From Nitrospira sp. (GTDB lineage: Bacteria > Nitrospirota > Nitrospiria > Nitrospirales > Nitrospiraceae), in assembly GCA_005116745.1 (NCBI GenBank), contig SWDS01000002.1, forward strand, positions 166,652-230,651: DNA of 64,000 nucleotides, read 5' to 3'. Both the position numbers and the translations under genes were made by a program. The notes beneath the pieces are model-generated. The model was given only the letters and a program-made list of their open reading frames with translations, was not told the origin of the DNA and did no database searches. Positions 2,109 to 50,381 of the stretch are shown here, piece by piece (positions within the stretch are counted from its first letter, which is position 1; every line of letters starts with the position of its first letter).

Positions 2109-3152
2109 GTGGCCCGCCGTCAGGCCAGCCCCCCCCTTCAAGAATTTGCACTCATCCGAATGCTCGAGCGTCGGTTTGCCCGTCGCACACCGGGACTTGT
2201 CCAAGGCATCGGCGACGACGCTGCCGTAATTGCGACCTCGTCGCCGACGTGGTGGCACCTCACAACGGACTTGCTTGCCGAAGGTATTCACTTTGACATG
2301 AAGTCAGCGACCCCTGAGTCCGTCGGATACCGGGCAGCCATGGCCAACCTCAGCGATATCGCCGCCATGGGAGCCGTCCCCCGCTATCTGCTCATCTCGC
2401 TCGCCATCCCAAAAACATGGACGCGGCCACACATCCATGAGCTCTACACCGGCTTGATGAAAGCTTGCCGCCTGTATAACGTGACACTCGTCGGTGGGGA
2501 TACCTCGGCATCCAAGGCTGGACTCTTTCTCAGCATCACCCTGGTCGGCGCGACAAGCAGGCGCCTAGCACTGTTTCGACACGGTGCCAACGTAGGAGAT
2601 CACATTTACGTTTCGGGCACGCTAGGAGACTCCCTCGCAGGCCTCACGCTCTTAATGGAGAGCACAAGCTCAGGCCCCTCAAGGAAAAAGAAGTCCGAGT
2701 TCTCTTCCGCTCATCGAGCGTTTCTGCTCCGTCGCCATTTCCGCCCTACTGCGAGGGTCGCCGAAGGCCAGTGGCTCAACGAGAGACAACTCGCCTCTGC
2801 TGCCATCGATCTGTCCGACGGCCTCTCCGGAGATCTTCGGCATCTGTGTGAAGCCAGTCGAGTCGGCGCAGAGGTGGAACTCGACAAGATTCCGATCTCA
2901 CCGGCCTGCCGAGCCTATGCCCGGGCGATCGGAGTGTCGCCGATTCAACTCGCACTCACTGGAGGCGAAGACTATGAGTTGCTGTTCACCACGCCGCCAC
3001 GCGACTGCAAGAAGGTTGAGCAGCAAGCGCGAACACGCGGCTATCGCATCACCCATATCGGAACGATTCGCCCGCAGTGGTTCGGGATTCAGATGATGAC
3101 TGACGGTCGGACGCAACCTCTGCCGGTCACAAGTTACGAGCATTTCCGTTGA
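2109..3152 (+). CDS. thiL: Thiamine-monophosphate kinase
   Basis: Phosphorylates thiamine monophosphate to the active cofactor thiamine diphosphate, the last step of thiamine synthesis. The 347-residue product matches the family length. It shows the AIRS-kinase pattern: an N-terminal F-x-LIRMLERRF helix, the metal/ATP-binding GIGDDAA motif near residue 36, an AMANLSDIAAMGA segment, VGGDTS, and the C-terminal SDGLSGD and GGEDYELLF motifs. GTG start. The stop codon shares one base with the ATG of the next gene (TGATG), indicating translational coupling. The other thiamine genes (thiS, thiG, thiE) lie about 20 kb away on the other strand. Confidence 0.95.
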   Translation: MARRQASPPLQEFALIRMLERRFARRTPGLVQGIGDDAAVIATSSPTWWHLTTDLLAEGIHFDMKSATPESVGYRAAMANLSDIAAMGAVPRYLLISLAIPKTWTRPHIHELYTGLMKACRLYNVTLVGGDTSASKAGLFLSITLVGATSRRLALFRHGANVGDHIYVSGTLGDSLAGLTLLMESTSSGPSRKKKSEFSSAHRAFLLRRHFRPTARVAEGQWLNERQLASAAIDLSDGLSGDLRHLCEASRVGAEVELDKIPISPACRAYARAIGVSPIQLALTGGEDYELLFTTPPRDCKKVEQQARTRGYRITHIGTIRPQWFGIQMMTDGRTQPLPVTSYEHFR

Positions 3153-3667
3153 TGGCCAACAGCAGTCACCAGCCCTCGGCACAACGGGCCCGATCATTTC
3201 GGGCACTCTTGCGCCAAGTCCTGCATTTACAGGAGTCACCGCAACGCACCGCGTTGGCCTTTGCGCTGGGCGTCTTCATCGCGTTCTCCCCCGCCTATGG
3301 TCTGCACACGGCGATGGTAGTGCTCTGCACCTGGCTATTCGGTCTCAATTTCTTGGCCTTGCTCGCCGGCGCCTTAGTCAATAATCCCTGGACCGTCATT
3401 CCGATCTTAGGCGCAACCTACTGGACCGGCGCCCTCTTGCTCGGACGTACGGATCAACCGAACTTCGACTGGCAGGATATGAGTTTCAGCGGCATCTACG
3501 AACAAGTCCTTCCCTACGCTGCTCCCTTCGTGCTCGGAGGACTTGTGCTCAGTGTGCTCGGAGCCCTCGTGTCCTATCCTGCCGCCTACTTGTTTTTCAA
3601 AAAACATCGCTCCGCGCCTACCAGTCCCACGACCGAACCGTTGCCGCCCCCTGACCAAGTGGGCTAA
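3152..3667 (+). CDS. DUF2062 membrane protein
   Basis: About 171 residues. A short basic N-terminus is followed by hydrophobic segments at roughly 35-85 and 125-160. The pattern LAFALGVFIAFSPAYGLHT and the NNPWT motif are typical of DUF2062 inner-membrane proteins, whose biochemical role is unknown. An in-frame TTG lies one codon earlier at 3149. The ATG at 3152 overlaps the thiL stop by one base and was preferred. It sits at the end of the lon-thiL run, 14 bases before the HD-domain gene. Confidence 0.8.
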   Translation: MANSSHQPSAQRARSFRALLRQVLHLQESPQRTALAFALGVFIAFSPAYGLHTAMVVLCTWLFGLNFLALLAGALVNNPWTVIPILGATYWTGALLLGRTDQPNFDWQDMSFSGIYEQVLPYAAPFVLGGLVLSVLGALVSYPAAYLFFKKHRSAPTSPTTEPLPPPDQVG

Positions 3668-3681
3668 GATACACACTGACT

Positions 3682-5100
3682 ATGGAATCAGCAGACCGAC
3701 CGAACGCGCCCTATGATGGCTCGGCGCTCATCGCTGACCCCATCCACAAGTACGTCACCTTCACCGTCCCCTATGCTCATCCTGATCCACATGAGCACAC
3801 CGAGAAGGACCTGATCGACTCCCCCTGGGTCCAGCGGCTGCGATACATCTACCAACTGCAGAGCGCTCGCTGGGTCTATCCCTCCGCGGAACATACCCGG
3901 TTTGTGCATTCACTCGGGACGATGCACGTCGCGGGACGATTTGCTCGACACCTGTACCCGTTTCTCAAGAAAGTCGTGAAGGATGTGCCCTCTCCAAATT
4001 TCGTCGAAGAGTTCCTCCGTGTCACAGCCTTGGTCCACGACATCGGGCACGGGCCGTTTTGCCATTTCTTCGACGATAATTTTCTCCATACCCATGGCCT
4101 CACCCACGAGCGGCTAGGCCAAATCATCATCCGTGAACATTTAGCCCCCCTCATCAAGAAAATCCGCCGAAGCCCGTCCGGCCCCTTCGCAAGAGGAGAA
4201 GAACTGAATCCTGACCAAATCGCTCACCTGATCCTCAAGGAGAAAGGCAAGGACAACTCCCGCCTTCCTCGATGGTTGAACATGCTCCAGCCCGTGATCT
4301 CAGGGAGTTACACGGGAGACAATCTGGACTATGTCTTGAGGGACTCGTATATGTGTGGCGTGGCGGTCGGCCCAGTCGATCTGACACGGTTGATTCATTA
4401 CACCATCGTGACGGAGAAAGGGTTCACCATTCACAAGACAGGACTTCCGTCCCTCCAAATGTTTCTAAACACCAGAATGTACCTCTACTCCAATGTCTAC
4501 TTCCATCGCACCACCAGAGCAATCGACATCCATCTGCGGGACATCTTCGGCCAGACGATGCAGCTGCTCTGCCCCAAGGATCCGCGTAAGAATATGGATC
4601 GGTATCGCGCTCTAACCGATTGGTCGCTGTTGGAAGAAGTCCGAGGATGGGCACAGTCTCGCCACAAAGCCCGACGACAGTTAGGACAGGAATGGGCCAG
4701 GATTTTAGGCCGAGACATCAAATGGAAAATGGCCTACAGCACGACGTTGAAAGAAAAAGGACAGGAACGCGGCATGGCGTTTCCCAGCCATCGGCATTTT
4801 GAGCAGCAGATTGCCAAAGAGCTGCCGTCCGGCTTGAGACGGCTGCCGTTTCGAGTGGACATGGCCCTGTTGGATCCACGACCAGACCCCAAAGACCACC
4901 GAGATAATCCACTCTATGTGTACGATCCCGGGACGGGTCAGGTTTCGACCGAGCCGCTGGAGGAATGCTTAGACCTGCTGCCTACGCGACTCATCCAGTT
5001 TCGAATCTATTCTCCCGACCACCACCACGACGCCGCTCTCTCGCAAGCTGCCGCAACCGTCCTCAATAAGACCCCGACCAGCCTAGAGTCTAATTACTGA
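3682..5100 (+). CDS. HD-domain phosphohydrolase (dNTPase/SAMHD1-like)
   Basis: 472 residues. The metal-dependent HD motif is present: an early histidine in EHTRFVHSLGTMH, then ALVHDIGHGPFCHFFDD (the HD pair), then a distal aspartate in SGSYTGDNLDYVLRDS. This order is that of the SAMHD1/YdhJ-like branch, whose characterised members cleave dNTPs to nucleoside and triphosphate. Substrate cannot be read from the sequence. The C-terminal 200 residues are rich in basic residues and likely form the multimer and allosteric part. No recognisable terminator follows. Confidence 0.85.
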   Translation: MESADRPNAPYDGSALIADPIHKYVTFTVPYAHPDPHEHTEKDLIDSPWVQRLRYIYQLQSARWVYPSAEHTRFVHSLGTMHVAGRFARHLYPFLKKVVKDVPSPNFVEEFLRVTALVHDIGHGPFCHFFDDNFLHTHGLTHERLGQIIIREHLAPLIKKIRRSPSGPFARGEELNPDQIAHLILKEKGKDNSRLPRWLNMLQPVISGSYTGDNLDYVLRDSYMCGVAVGPVDLTRLIHYTIVTEKGFTIHKTGLPSLQMFLNTRMYLYSNVYFHRTTRAIDIHLRDIFGQTMQLLCPKDPRKNMDRYRALTDWSLLEEVRGWAQSRHKARRQLGQEWARILGRDIKWKMAYSTTLKEKGQERGMAFPSHRHFEQQIAKELPSGLRRLPFRVDMALLDPRPDPKDHRDNPLYVYDPGTGQVSTEPLEECLDLLPTRLIQFRIYSPDHHHDAALSQAAATVLNKTPTSLESNY

Positions 5101-46494: not shown

Positions 46495-46600
46495 TGGCTT
46501 CGATGTGCTCCCCCAACGTGAATCGACGAGAACGAGGAAACTTATCAAGCTGCGGGAATCAGCCAGAGTAGCAGCTTGTGGCATGATTGCACCGCCTGCG
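46495..46600 (-). pseudogene. avd-like gene fragment A
   Basis: The minus strand reads PQAVQSCHKLLLWLIP and then, after a one-base insertion, QLDKFPRSRRFTLGE. This is the N-terminal part of the four-helix-bundle protein Avd associated with diversity-generating retroelements (also found alone). It is about 100 bases long, frameshifted and without the remaining helices. A second copy lies at 47410-47530. Confidence 0.6.
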
Positions 46601-46701
46601 GCACAGGCAACAACCAGATTCCTAGATCGATCACGCGTTCGACAGGCAGCGCCCCTGGCCCTCTCCGGCACCGTCACGCATGCTGTGCGAAGGCCTTCCT
46701 G

Positions 46702-46730
46702 TTGACAAGAGGCACACATCGTCATAATAT
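46702..46730 (+). promoter_or_regulatory. Consensus promoter of the BrnT-like module, probably leaderless
   Basis: TTGACA, 17 bases, TAATAT. The GTG start at 46738 lies only 7 bases after the -10 box, so transcription would begin at or next to the start codon. No ribosome binding site is present. Confidence 0.6.
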
Positions 46731-46737
46731 TCCCAAT

Positions 46738-47025
46738 GTGGAGAAATGGGACTATGCGTTCGATCCAGAGAAGAACACCTGGCTCATCCGGGAGCGCGGA
46801 ATCAGCTTCGAACAGATCATCGCGCTGATTGAAAGCGGCCATCTCGTTCAGGTGCTGGAACATCACGACCGCGAGCGCTATCCCAACCAGCTTCTCTACG
46901 AAGTCGATGTAGGTGGATATATTTACGTCGTCCCAGTCGTCAGAGACCACCAGACACTGTTTTTAAAGACGATCTATCCAAGCCGGAAGGCCACGAGAAG
47001 CCGCGCGAAAGGACGCCCATCATGA
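46738..47025 (+). CDS. BrnT-like toxin
   Basis: 95 residues from a GTG at 46738; the longer frame upstream is the antisense of avd fragment A and was discarded. FDPEKNTWLIRERGISFEQI, YPNQLLYEVDVGGYIYVVPVV and FLKTIYPSRKATR follow the compact RelE-like fold of BrnT/DUF4258 proteins. Probably a translation-inhibiting RNase, paired with the overlapping downstream gene. Confidence 0.8.
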   Translation: MEKWDYAFDPEKNTWLIRERGISFEQIIALIESGHLVQVLEHHDRERYPNQLLYEVDVGGYIYVVPVVRDHQTLFLKTIYPSRKATRSRAKGRPS

Positions 47026-47303
47026 AGAAGAAACTCGTGTTGGATCAAGACGAAGAACAGCTGATCACTGATTACGAACGCGGTGCTTTCAGGCCGGTCA
47101 AGAATCAGGACATGGCCAGAAAAGAAGCGATGGAAGCCGCCCGGCGCTACGTGCGCAAGGACGCCCGGATCAATATCCGATTATCGACCGCCGACCTTGA
47201 GCTGCTCAAGCAACGCGCCGCCGAAGAAGGCCTACCCTATCAAAGCCTGATCGCCAGCATCCTTCATAAATACGTCAGCCGCTCTGCGCCACAGACAAAT
47301 TAA
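47022..47303 (+). CDS. Ribbon-helix-helix antitoxin partner (CopG/BrnA-like)
   Basis: 93 residues, starting in a 4-base overlap (ATGA) with the toxin. INIRLSTADLELLKQRAAEEGLPYQSLIASILHKYV is the CopG-type DNA-binding fold at the C-terminal end; the N-terminal part is charged and likely contacts the toxin. The toxin-first order is that of BrnTA. Confidence 0.85.
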   Translation: MKKKLVLDQDEEQLITDYERGAFRPVKNQDMARKEAMEAARRYVRKDARINIRLSTADLELLKQRAAEEGLPYQSLIASILHKYVSRSAPQTN

Positions 47304-47309
47304 CCAGTC

Positions 47310-47350
47310 GCCCTGAGTTCTTCGACTTCGCTCAGAACAGGCATGTCGAA
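47310..47350. repeat. Short palindromic repeat, GAGTTCTTCGACTTCGC type
   Basis: Hairpin-forming TTCTTCGACTTCGCTCAGAA followed by CATGTCGAAG. A related unit, TACTGAGCTTGTCGAAGCA, is at 47567-47585. The two flank the avd fragment B. They look like dispersed palindromic repeats, not coding sequence. Confidence 0.5.
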
Positions 47351-47409
47351 GCCTGCCGTGAGTTCATCGAACCGGATGAACGGAGAGTTTTTCCGCAACC
47401 TGCTCGACC

Positions 47410-47530
47410 GCATTTCGAGGCGCTCTCCTAATGTGAAACGACGCGAGCGCGGGAATTCATCGAGCTGCGGAATCAGCCACAGCAACAGCTTGTGGCACGA
47501 CTGCACGGCTTGGGGAACCGTCGGAGACAT
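47410..47530 (-). pseudogene. avd-like gene fragment B
   Basis: From an ATG at 47530 the minus strand encodes MSPTVPQAVQSCHKLLLWLI, then PQLDEFPRSRRFTLGERLE, after which resemblance to Avd is lost. This is the first helix and turn of the Avd four-helix bundle. Together with fragment A it brackets the BrnT/antitoxin pair in the same orientation. No reverse transcriptase frame is present in the window. Confidence 0.6.
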
Positions 47531-47678: not shown

Positions 47679-50381
47679 CTACGAAAGGTCCAGGGCAAGA
47701 CGGAAGCCAAGGATGCCGTTGTCCCGGCTGTCGGCATTGCCTATGTCGTCCCGGGTCTCACGCAGGTGTACCGATCCGGCGCCCCGGTAGCCGGCATCGC
47801 ACCCGTTCCGAAGAGAGACACGTGAGCTCCCCAGCCTGTAGTCCCAGGAACCGCCGCGGATCACGCGCCGGTCGCCACCCTTGTCGATACGCATGGTCTC
47901 CAGTCGTTCGGAGTTCCTGGTTTTGTTCACACACCATTCCCAGACATTCCCCATCATATCCAGCACACCCTGTTGCGTGGCCCCCTGAGGATACATCCCC
48001 ACCGCCGTGGTCCGGTTCAGTCGGCTTTCATAGCTGTTGCAACGGGAACCATCCCGCCCGCCTTCCCACGGATATTCGCGCTCTGGATCTCCCCCTGTCG
48101 CCGCCTGCTGCCATTCCCACTCTGTCGGTAAACGAACCGGCTGGTCAGGCTGGTGGTGACTGAGCCACCGGCAAAAGGCAACGGCTTCGTACCAGGAGAC
48201 TGTTTCCCGAGGAGCGTTAGCTTCGTGCCATGACGCGGTACACGCCTCCTCGCTCTGTTCGATGTCCTTCCACCACTCCTCATTTCGATAGCCATCCGTT
48301 GCTGTGATGAACGCCGCGAACTGCGCGTTCGTCACTGGGTATTTAGCCATGCGGAAGGGCTTCACCTCGAACACGTGATCGCCATCCTCAAGCTTGACGC
48401 TGCCTCCGGGGATATCGATCCACACGATGTCAGGCACACCGTCTTTCACCCCGACACCGGGTCGCGTATCGCCGAACTCGGCGAGCGTTTGGCCGATCAG
48501 TAGCCGCTCTTGATGCGAGAGCTCCTCCTCTAATTTCGCAAGCAGCAGCTGGTGAGGCTTCAGAAACCGCTCCAACTCGGGAGAGAGACTCTTGCCGAAC
48601 TGCTCGAGCGCATTAAGCACCTTCTTCGCACGGTTGCCAAGCCACAGCTCGTGTGGATTGTCGCCGCCCTTCTGCCATCTCCTGGCTTCCACTTCAGCAT
48701 GATCGATATCACGCAAGGCTTCCCCGCTCTTCTCAATCCAATCTTTGAGCTCCGGCCAGGCAGTAAACAACTTCTCATGGGCGACCTCCACGACGGCCTC
48801 TTGGCCGGTCCCGCTCGTGACCAAGACGCGGCACTCTTGTCCTGCCAATGCGTCGATGAGCTTCTTGGCGGCCTGATTCGAACTGAACATCGAAACGGCC
48901 GCGCGGCGTCGCGTCGGCGGGCGTTCTCGTTCGAGGTGCATGAGTTCGGCAAAGACGCGGTCGAACGATCCGCCCACCTGTTCGTCCAAACCAGACAAGA
49001 CGTCATTGGTCTTTGTCGCGATCGCACCGACCACACCACCAATGGCCTCATAGGCCTCCATCCTAAAGATCCGGCCCTTACGCCTCTCAAAGAGTTGCTT
49101 GAGGGCATATTCGACAAGGGCCAGGTTCCCCGGCTCTTGCCCAGTATCCTGCAAGATCCGCTCGACAAGTCCCTGCTCAAACTCGTATCCGGTGGCGTGA
49201 GCCGGTTTCTCGATCATGTCCTGCAATACCCTCGGCGATACAGGACCCAAGTGATGCCGGTAAGGACTGTTGAGCAGGGCCAGGGTTGATTCGTACTCTT
49301 CCAGCTTCCCAAGAAATTCGCTACGGATAGTGGCGATGACTCTGAGCCGATTGGTCTGGTCTTGCGCCGTGCCGATCACTTGCTCAAGAAACGTCTGAAT
49401 GTCCGGCTCGTGAAAGCCACTCGTAAACACCTCCTCGAATTGATCGACGAACAGGATCAATTCCTGCCCTTGGGTGAGATGCTGAGAGAGGAGGTCCCGA
49501 AACGTCGAGCCTGTGGCTGTCAATCGTGGCCGAACGGCGAGCTGGAAGATCTCTTTGAGTCCACGGGCCAACGCATCCCAGGGGGTGTCGCCATCGCTCG
49601 GCTGGATGCGCTGCCATAGCCATTGCGCGTTTCCAGGTAATCGCCCTTGTTTGGTAATAGCCTGCCAGACTCCCGCCGCGACCACGGACGATTTCCCAGA
49701 TCCAGACGCCCCGATGACGAGCAGTGTGCGTCCCCCCGGCTCACTCATCTTGGCGACGAGCTCGTCCACTTCACGATCACGCCCGAAGAACAACGGCGCA
49801 TAGTCCTGGTTAAACCACAGCAACCCCCGATAGGGCGACGTGCCCTCCGGCCAATCGATGCGAACCTGCCGCGGGCTTGGCTGCCCTCTCTCTTCTTCAT
49901 CTTCCTTCAACGCTTGGTAAATAAGTTTCTCAAGCTCATCGACATTGCTAAACGATGCACACATCACTTTTGCATCATTCAGTCGTTGACGAAACTGCTC
50001 CTGCCGATCGCCATACCTCACATCCATGAAGCGCCTCAGTGGAACCGACGCCTCCGGATCGAGTAGGAAAAGGAACCGTTTTATGGTTGGTGCTTCCGTC
50101 GCCGCTTGAAATTCGAGTTCGGCATAGGAGACTTCTGGCTGGTCACGAACAGGAGAGCCATAGCGCAACCCGATCAACCCAATATAGACATCGCATTCAC
50201 GAACGCACTTCTTACAGTACTCGGCAGGTTTTTCATCTCGCGCCGTGAAATACCCCATATCGCGTGGCACACTTCCAGCCCGATTCACCGCCGCAACTGC
50301 AGCGTCGATAAACGATCTCTTTTCAGGATACTTAGCGAATTCTGACGTGTGACTGATGAACACTTTAAGAATCTTCGTCAT
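47679..50381 (-). CDS. DUF4062 - STAND NTPase - FGE/C-type-lectin-fold protein (DGR-target-like)
   Basis: 900 residues from the ATG at 50381 (the longer frame to 50444 lacks support). Order: N-terminal DUF4062/TIR-like domain (1-150; LKVFISHTSEF, CDVYIGLIGLRYGS), linker, then an nSTAND NTPase (about 195-480; SPYRGLLWFNQDYAPLFFGR, Walker A GASGSGKSS near 224, Walker B LILFVDQFEEVF). A helical arm follows, then a formylglycine-generating-enzyme fold (about 655-900) with PVTNAQFAAF, PTEWEWQQAATGG and MGNVWEWC. The end, RVIRGGSWDYRLGSSRVSLR to NGILGFRLALDLS, matches the variable region of DGR target proteins. A defence or self/non-self receptor is inferred. Confidence 0.85.
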   Translation of the reverse strand: MTKILKVFISHTSEFAKYPEKRSFIDAAVAAVNRAGSVPRDMGYFTARDEKPAEYCKKCVRECDVYIGLIGLRYGSPVRDQPEVSYAELEFQAATEAPTIKRFLFLLDPEASVPLRRFMDVRYGDRQEQFRQRLNDAKVMCASFSNVDELEKLIYQALKEDEEERGQPSPRQVRIDWPEGTSPYRGLLWFNQDYAPLFFGRDREVDELVAKMSEPGGRTLLVIGASGSGKSSVVAAGVWQAITKQGRLPGNAQWLWQRIQPSDGDTPWDALARGLKEIFQLAVRPRLTATGSTFRDLLSQHLTQGQELILFVDQFEEVFTSGFHEPDIQTFLEQVIGTAQDQTNRLRVIATIRSEFLGKLEEYESTLALLNSPYRHHLGPVSPRVLQDMIEKPAHATGYEFEQGLVERILQDTGQEPGNLALVEYALKQLFERRKGRIFRMEAYEAIGGVVGAIATKTNDVLSGLDEQVGGSFDRVFAELMHLERERPPTRRRAAVSMFSSNQAAKKLIDALAGQECRVLVTSGTGQEAVVEVAHEKLFTAWPELKDWIEKSGEALRDIDHAEVEARRWQKGGDNPHELWLGNRAKKVLNALEQFGKSLSPELERFLKPHQLLLAKLEEELSHQERLLIGQTLAEFGDTRPGVGVKDGVPDIVWIDIPGGSVKLEDGDHVFEVKPFRMAKYPVTNAQFAAFITATDGYRNEEWWKDIEQSEEACTASWHEANAPRETVSWYEAVAFCRWLSHHQPDQPVRLPTEWEWQQAATGGDPEREYPWEGGRDGSRCNSYESRLNRTTAVGMYPQGATQQGVLDMMGNVWEWCVNKTRNSERLETMRIDKGGDRRVIRGGSWDYRLGSSRVSLRNGCDAGYRGAGSVHLRETRDDIGNADSRDNGILGFRLALDLS

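Follow-up and report, generated by a model that had tools for sequence, protein, structure and literature searches.

Whether a bacterial receptor whose C-terminal tail has the layout of a diversity-generating retroelement (DGR) target was in fact diversified by such an element, and whether it still is, are the questions raised by a single gene in the Nitrospira DNA analysed here (a stretch of 64,000 nucleotides, referred to as the window). We approached them through the domain structure of the receptor, the complete DGRs of other Nitrospira, the variation of related tails across the genus, and searches of the genome carrying the window (G000) for the missing machinery.

Domain structure of the receptor

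An earlier note, made from the DNA letters, had described one protein joining a DUF4062 domain, an nSTAND NTPase and a formylglycine-enzyme (FGE)/C-type-lectin end. This fusion is borne out, the ORF being exactly as stated there and all three domains being recognized by Pfam profiles (Table 1). The nSTAND1 module lies between effector and sensor, with Walker A at residue 224 and Walker B (LILFVDQFEE) at residue 308. An S-x-x-E-x-E motif containing E88 and E90 is found in the DUF4062 domain; E90 is invariant among 16 aligned relatives and E88 aligns with the sole Glu of the corresponding motif in KpSwz, either of the two being a candidate catalytic residue. The nearest solved structures by sequence are FGE-fold proteins, including the DGR variable protein TvpA (2y3c; residues 749-860 of the lectin end, E=1.3e-5), and, for the N-terminus, KpSwz (10wc_A; residues 5-153 aligned, E=4e-5). 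Of two AlphaFold predictions built from 16-member alignments, one reached a pLDDT of 39 for the lectin end and the other stayed below 50 for residues 745-900, too low for placing VR sites on a structure; the full-length model gave partial structural matches only, to ATPase and NDT/TIR-like folds, and these carry no weight in what follows. PADLOC returned no convincing match.

Table 1. Features of the receptor locus (window positions)
Feature	Position	Strand	Evidence or remarks
DUF4062-nSTAND1-FGE/C-type-lectin receptor gene	47679..50381	minus	900 aa; ATG at 50381, TAG at 47679-47681
DUF4062 domain (TIR-like NADase family)	50100..50366	minus	Pfam E=1.4e-15
nSTAND1 NTPase	48657..49835	minus	Pfam E=8.7e-92
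FGE-sulfatase / C-type-lectin-fold sensor domain	47790..48419	minus	PF03781 E=1.2e-40
VR copy 1, TR codons 1-28	47775..47858	minus	match to foreign TR, E=1.7e-10; mismatches at A 15/24, at non-A 8/67
Partial VR copy 2, tandem to copy 1; covers about TR codons 10-35 and contains indels	47691..47768	minus	TR alignment
avd 5' stub, MSPTVPQAVQSCHKLLLWLIPQLDEFPRSRRFTLGERLE, 39 codons, then broken off	47414..47530	minus	90% aa identity to intact Nitrospira avd, E=5e-24
Second avd 5' stub	46499..46604	minus	78% identical to first stub

Complete DGR cassettes in other Nitrospira

Intact cassettes occur in other members of the genus in the order target, avd (encoding bAvd), reverse transcriptase (RT) and template repeat (TR), and the TR of these complete DGRs encodes RGGSWNNKPENLRVSNRNRNNADNRNNNIGFRLAQ. 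Pairs of TR and variable region (VR) were sought by an A-wildcard scan of the loci around RTs; it yielded clean TRs at six loci close to DGR-type RTs, and at three of these the whole TR/VR pair was present. The best 70-nt TR/VR alignments, at G105:C100, G105:C47 and G149:C140, contain 18, 19 and 20 changes at TR adenines, respectively, and none elsewhere. RTs at the G105 and G149 loci are 350-380 aa long and carry the motif IPIGN[LQ]TSQFFAN together with YxDD, and bAvd beside Nitrospira DGR RTs is matched with E values of 1e-17 to 1e-19. One intact RT and TR cassette, in G149, is adjoined on the far side of the TR by a DUF4062-nSTAND1-FGE gene about 61% identical to that of the window, the assembly ending just ahead of its VR. 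Of the 79 genus genomes, 29 have a match resembling a TR or VR, and these include all 10 in which a strong DGR RT match was obtained; in the 19 that have such a match and no RT, the match is TR-like in a few (e.g. G035, G041) and short in two. Many Nitrospira genomes also encode RTs of 460-600 aa that match the DGR profile weakly (E 1e-6 to 1e-32); these were taken as group II-like and left out of the DGR RT count.

The receptor tail as a DGR variable region

The receptor tail, RGGSWDYRLGSSRVSLRNGCDAGYRGAGSVHLRETRDDIGNADSRDNGILGFRLALDLS, is carried by the C-type-lectin/FGE fold that also matches TvpA. When the TR of G127 was used as a DNA query against G000, this tail was the best match (75% over 91 bp), with mismatches at 15 of 24 template A positions and at 8 of 67 non-A positions, a skew that is significant over the first 60 nt (Fisher p=2e-4); here as throughout, comparisons with the window rest on TRs of other Nitrospira species. 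Because relatives possess complete DGRs with a homologous TR, we identify the window tail as a DGR VR, and the past adenine-directed mutagenesis of the C-terminus that had been claimed from the letters gains support from these intact elements of sister species. At the 11 AAC codons of the TR, the first window copy reads GAC TAC AGC CTT AAC TGC GAT TAC GGC GCC GGA, most of them still ending in C. Third bases are altered at 3 of these 11 codons, compared with 7.6% in the VR family (p=0.05), which suggests either that the VR has aged or that it came from a slightly different TR.

The RGGSW...GFRLA layout that had been claimed for the last residues is present, differing in one detail from the earlier description. 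The stretch between these motifs is 21 codons longer than in a normal VR, giving a tail of about 1.6 VRs, and it is over-long because it contains a second, partial copy. A 66-nt segment of this copy (47712-47777) aligns to the TR with a score of 50, compared with 22 +- 3.6 for shuffled sequences, of which none in 300 reached 50; none of 164 other segments of the receptor gene matched that score. The second copy perhaps arose by mis-registered retrohoming or by unequal recombination, both of which are guesses.

Variation of VRs across the genus

Comparison of one genome per species revealed Nitrospira orthologues 40-76% identical to the window receptor, the alignments tending to end shortly past RGGSW. 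Beyond that point the orthologue tails conform to RGGSWxxxPxxLRxSxRxxxxxxxRxxxIGFRLxQDIP, where x marks the changing residues. Differences among 16 orthologues fall mostly at third codon positions outside the tail, whereas within it the ratio of differences at positions 1/2 to those at position 3 is 0.95, against 0.48-0.73 elsewhere. The pattern is sharper in 49 VRs collected from the genus: at the 11 AAC codons of the TR, positions 1, 2 and 3 differ in 62%, 51% and 7.6% of cases, and at all other codons in 15%, 16% and 23%. Variable first and second positions with a conserved third position at AAC codons are the mark of adenine-directed mutagenesis. An ordinarily conserved C-terminus in relatives had been named earlier as a sign against DGR ancestry; judged from the 16 orthologues and 49 VRs, the tail is instead hypervariable.

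These data also bear on the view that the tail belongs to an ordinary FGE-fold domain that evolves fast and has loops that merely look like a VR, no retroelement having been involved. The RGGSW...GFR frame is indeed common to FGE-fold proteins, and G000 has 21 FGE-sulfatase matches, many with ordinary tails. However, ordinary FGE paralogues (L014, L019) differ from the TR at 26-34 of 75 non-A positions, compared with 8 of 67 for the window; the conservation of third codon positions alongside variable first and second positions is the reverse of ordinary evolution; and an avd stub adjoins the window gene. Taken together, the foreign-TR match, the codon pattern of the 49 VRs and the stub lead us to reject ordinary FGE variation, to which we attach next to no probability, and to retain the tail as a DGR VR.

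A single VR family is borne by several types of Nitrospira effector, namely TIR-nSTAND1, TIR, caspase and DUF4062; a caspase (Peptidase_C14)-FGE protein with a VR of the window kind is encoded at 2217-3857 of locus L257 (G134:C1). A near-identical VR, DNEREILRVSNRSGSPADDRGSSVGF, is present in four species (loci L037, L038, L039 and L045, genus g9, in G057, G082, G100 and G112), in whose genomes no DGR-type RT was found; this looks like frozen specificity. VRs at four other loci (L169 1718-4567, L176 7835-9622, L047 and L050) are out of frame or overrun the usual end owing to frameshifts inside the VR; these reflect genuine loss or else an assembly error arising from a mixed population.

Absence of the diversifying machinery

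Neither an RT nor a TR was found in the window, as had been noted before, but the window is not devoid of DGR remains, as two truncated avd genes lie downstream of the receptor. The search was extended to the whole of G000, an assembly of 3.86 Mb in 32 contigs and 99.96% complete, in which profile searches with PF00078 (RVT_1) and with a Nitrospira DGR RT profile detected no RT; queries with the window tail and with a foreign TR recovered VRs only, and no TR; and a bAvd search that did score in the four DGR-bearing genomes used as positive controls revealed no intact bAvd in G000. The lack of a TR and RT genome-wide had been proposed earlier as one half of a case against a DGR target, the other half being the ordinary conservation discounted above.

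Three VR-like tails are nevertheless present in G000: that of the window gene, that of a TIR-nSTAND1-FGE protein on C1, and that of a TIR-FGE protein on C6. The second STAND gene of this genome is the next match of the G127 TR (E=9.9e-4). On C1 (L283 3196-5853) the VR appears old, with 22/74 non-A mismatches, and an avd stub of about 50 codons lies downstream; the C6 gene (L284 4149-5435) has 11/75 non-A mismatches and is without an avd stub. Three such tails without an RT, a TR or an intact avd imply that the window target has been orphaned, and on these sequence grounds we consider it very probable that the gene is the orphaned target of a DGR. As G000 is without an RT, the gene is a former target and not part of a working element, and we infer that the receptor is now frozen at its last specificity.

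The principal alternative is that a DGR missed in the assembly, or residing on an unassembled plasmid, continues to diversify the receptor in trans. Cassettes in the genus often occupy very short contigs (G127:C47, 5.7 kb; G105:C100, 8.9 kb), VR/TR repeats break assemblies, and a small RT contig could be missing from the 32 of G000. Action in trans does occur in Nitrospira: a G127 target on another contig (C64) differs from the TR by 10 A changes and no others. Moreover, one VR in G093 (G093:C36:81166-81276, L242) matches the TR of G158 at 73/73 non-A positions with 12 A changes, while no DGR-type RT was found in the G093 assembly; there, diversification or loss of the RT must be recent, or else the RT was missed through an assembly gap. 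Against a trans-acting DGR stand the completeness of G000 with its negative RT, TR and bAvd searches, and the state of its three VRs, which differ from the nearest known TRs at 8/67, 11/75 and 22/74 non-A positions, not near zero. A relative, G078, is likewise orphaned, with two VRs and no DGR RT in a single contig of 4.1 Mb, so that the missing RT is not an assembly gap in that case. Ongoing diversification in trans is thus decidedly unlikely, and loss of the diversifier remains the preferred reading. The earlier expectation that diversification would have to act from elsewhere or be lost was right, and of the two it is loss that the neighbouring avd stub supports.

Proposed function and relation to known systems

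As long as the genome had an RT, the VR would have been replaced by cDNA made from the TR with errors at adenines, and the ligand-binding face of the lectin end altered. Binding of a ligand such as a phage product by this end may lead nSTAND1 to bind NTP and oligomerize, whereupon the TIR-like DUF4062 domain would become active as an NADase, depleting NAD+ and arresting the infected cell. This chain from ligand through nSTAND1 and DUF4062 to loss of NAD+ is argued from the protein families and is, in our estimation, somewhat probable; phage sensing and NAD+ depletion by the window receptor itself are predictions. DUF4062 proteins have been reported in one study to protect against phage through NAD+ depletion (PMC13174449, preprint 2026), and DGR-diversified nSTAND1-FGE proteins have been proposed as antigen sensors (Dore et al. 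2024, PMC10907252).

The closest parallels are the DGR STAND/CLec sensors of Thiohalocapsa PB-PSB1 and clade 5D (PMC10907252), which share the nSTAND1 centre and a DGR VR within a C-terminal FGE/CLec domain. N-terminal TIR effectors are present in some of them, several targets occur per genome and some loci are incomplete or remote, as in Nitrospira. In contrast to that group, the window effector is DUF4062 and the host is Nitrospira, neither being named as such in the searched text, and G000 is without RT, TR and intact avd genome-wide, its targets being marked by truncated avd stubs. Swarozyc/KpSwz (PMC13174449), an antiphage NADase, shares the TIR-like DUF4062 domain with the window protein, in which NADase activity is putative; KpSwz differs in having another auxiliary domain, and the paper mentions no STAND, FGE or DGR. 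TvpA of Treponema denticola (2y3c) has the FGE-type C-type-lectin fold and a similar lectin-end sequence, but is without a STAND or effector domain, and the VR of the window is partially duplicated.

DGR-diversified STAND sensors are thus already known as a kind. New here are the DUF4062 effector, the Nitrospira repertoire with several effectors on one VR family, the orphan targets with avd stubs, and the partly duplicated VR. A literature search of open-licence papers found none on DGRs in Nitrospira, though an earlier mention is possible; in one survey, Nitrospirae accounted for 0.6% of DGR hits. It is mostly in multicellular bacteria that STAND receptors diversified by DGRs have been put forward as the bacterial equivalent of hypervariable immune sensors; Nitrospira adds a genus-wide repertoire of TIR, DUF4062 and caspase fusions. 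It also displays a state not stressed before, in which targets outlast their diversifier and are marked by a broken accessory gene. This raises the question of whether hypermutated sensors are retained as fixed innate receptors after reaching a useful specificity.

Truncated avd genes and history of the locus

The receptor gene adjoins uvrA in the window and in G078, LK70 and G125, and evolves faster than this neighbour, the UvrA of G125 being 94% identical and its receptor 64%. Another group of relatives shows just 25-28% identity in the DUF4062 domain and 74-79% in the nSTAND domain, a disparity that suggests effector swapping.

Past the avd break next to the receptor gene lies unrelated sequence, whereas a whole avd stands at the equivalent place in intact cassettes. 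Similar stubs follow the TIR-STAND gene on C1 of G000 and the orthologues of the window gene in G078, G125 and LK70, as well as other targets in G134, G151 and G096; many other VR genes of the genus are without one. Break points vary among loci, several lying near codon 40, but the window junction is common to G096:C1 and probably to G096:C2. Most simply, the window locus is either a DGR cassette that was beheaded or a target that was copied to a new site along with the first part of avd. The original order would have been target-avd-RT-TR, and either a deletion starting inside avd would have removed the rest of the cassette, or the target would have been copied elsewhere with only the beginning of avd. 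It is conceivable, if rather unlikely, that DGRs come and go in Nitrospira while targets stay, with cassettes of target and avd stub dispersing or surviving as a library of cell-suicide receptors, either frozen or diversified from a distance, in which the stub would supply homology for regaining RT and TR. On this view, the stubs that have one junction across species (those of the window, G096:C1 and probably G096:C2) with VRs that differ would mean that VRs were diversified in trans after the RT had been lost in cis.

The two window stubs flank a small plus-strand gene pair (46576-47025 and 47022-47303), which by its appearance is a candidate BrnT/BrnA toxin-antitoxin module. Where avd breaks off, the sequence that follows (47300-47413; also L303, L306 and L320) resembles REP-like repeats dispersed in the genus, CAGGTTGCGGAAAAACTC ... 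TTCGACAAGCTCAG.
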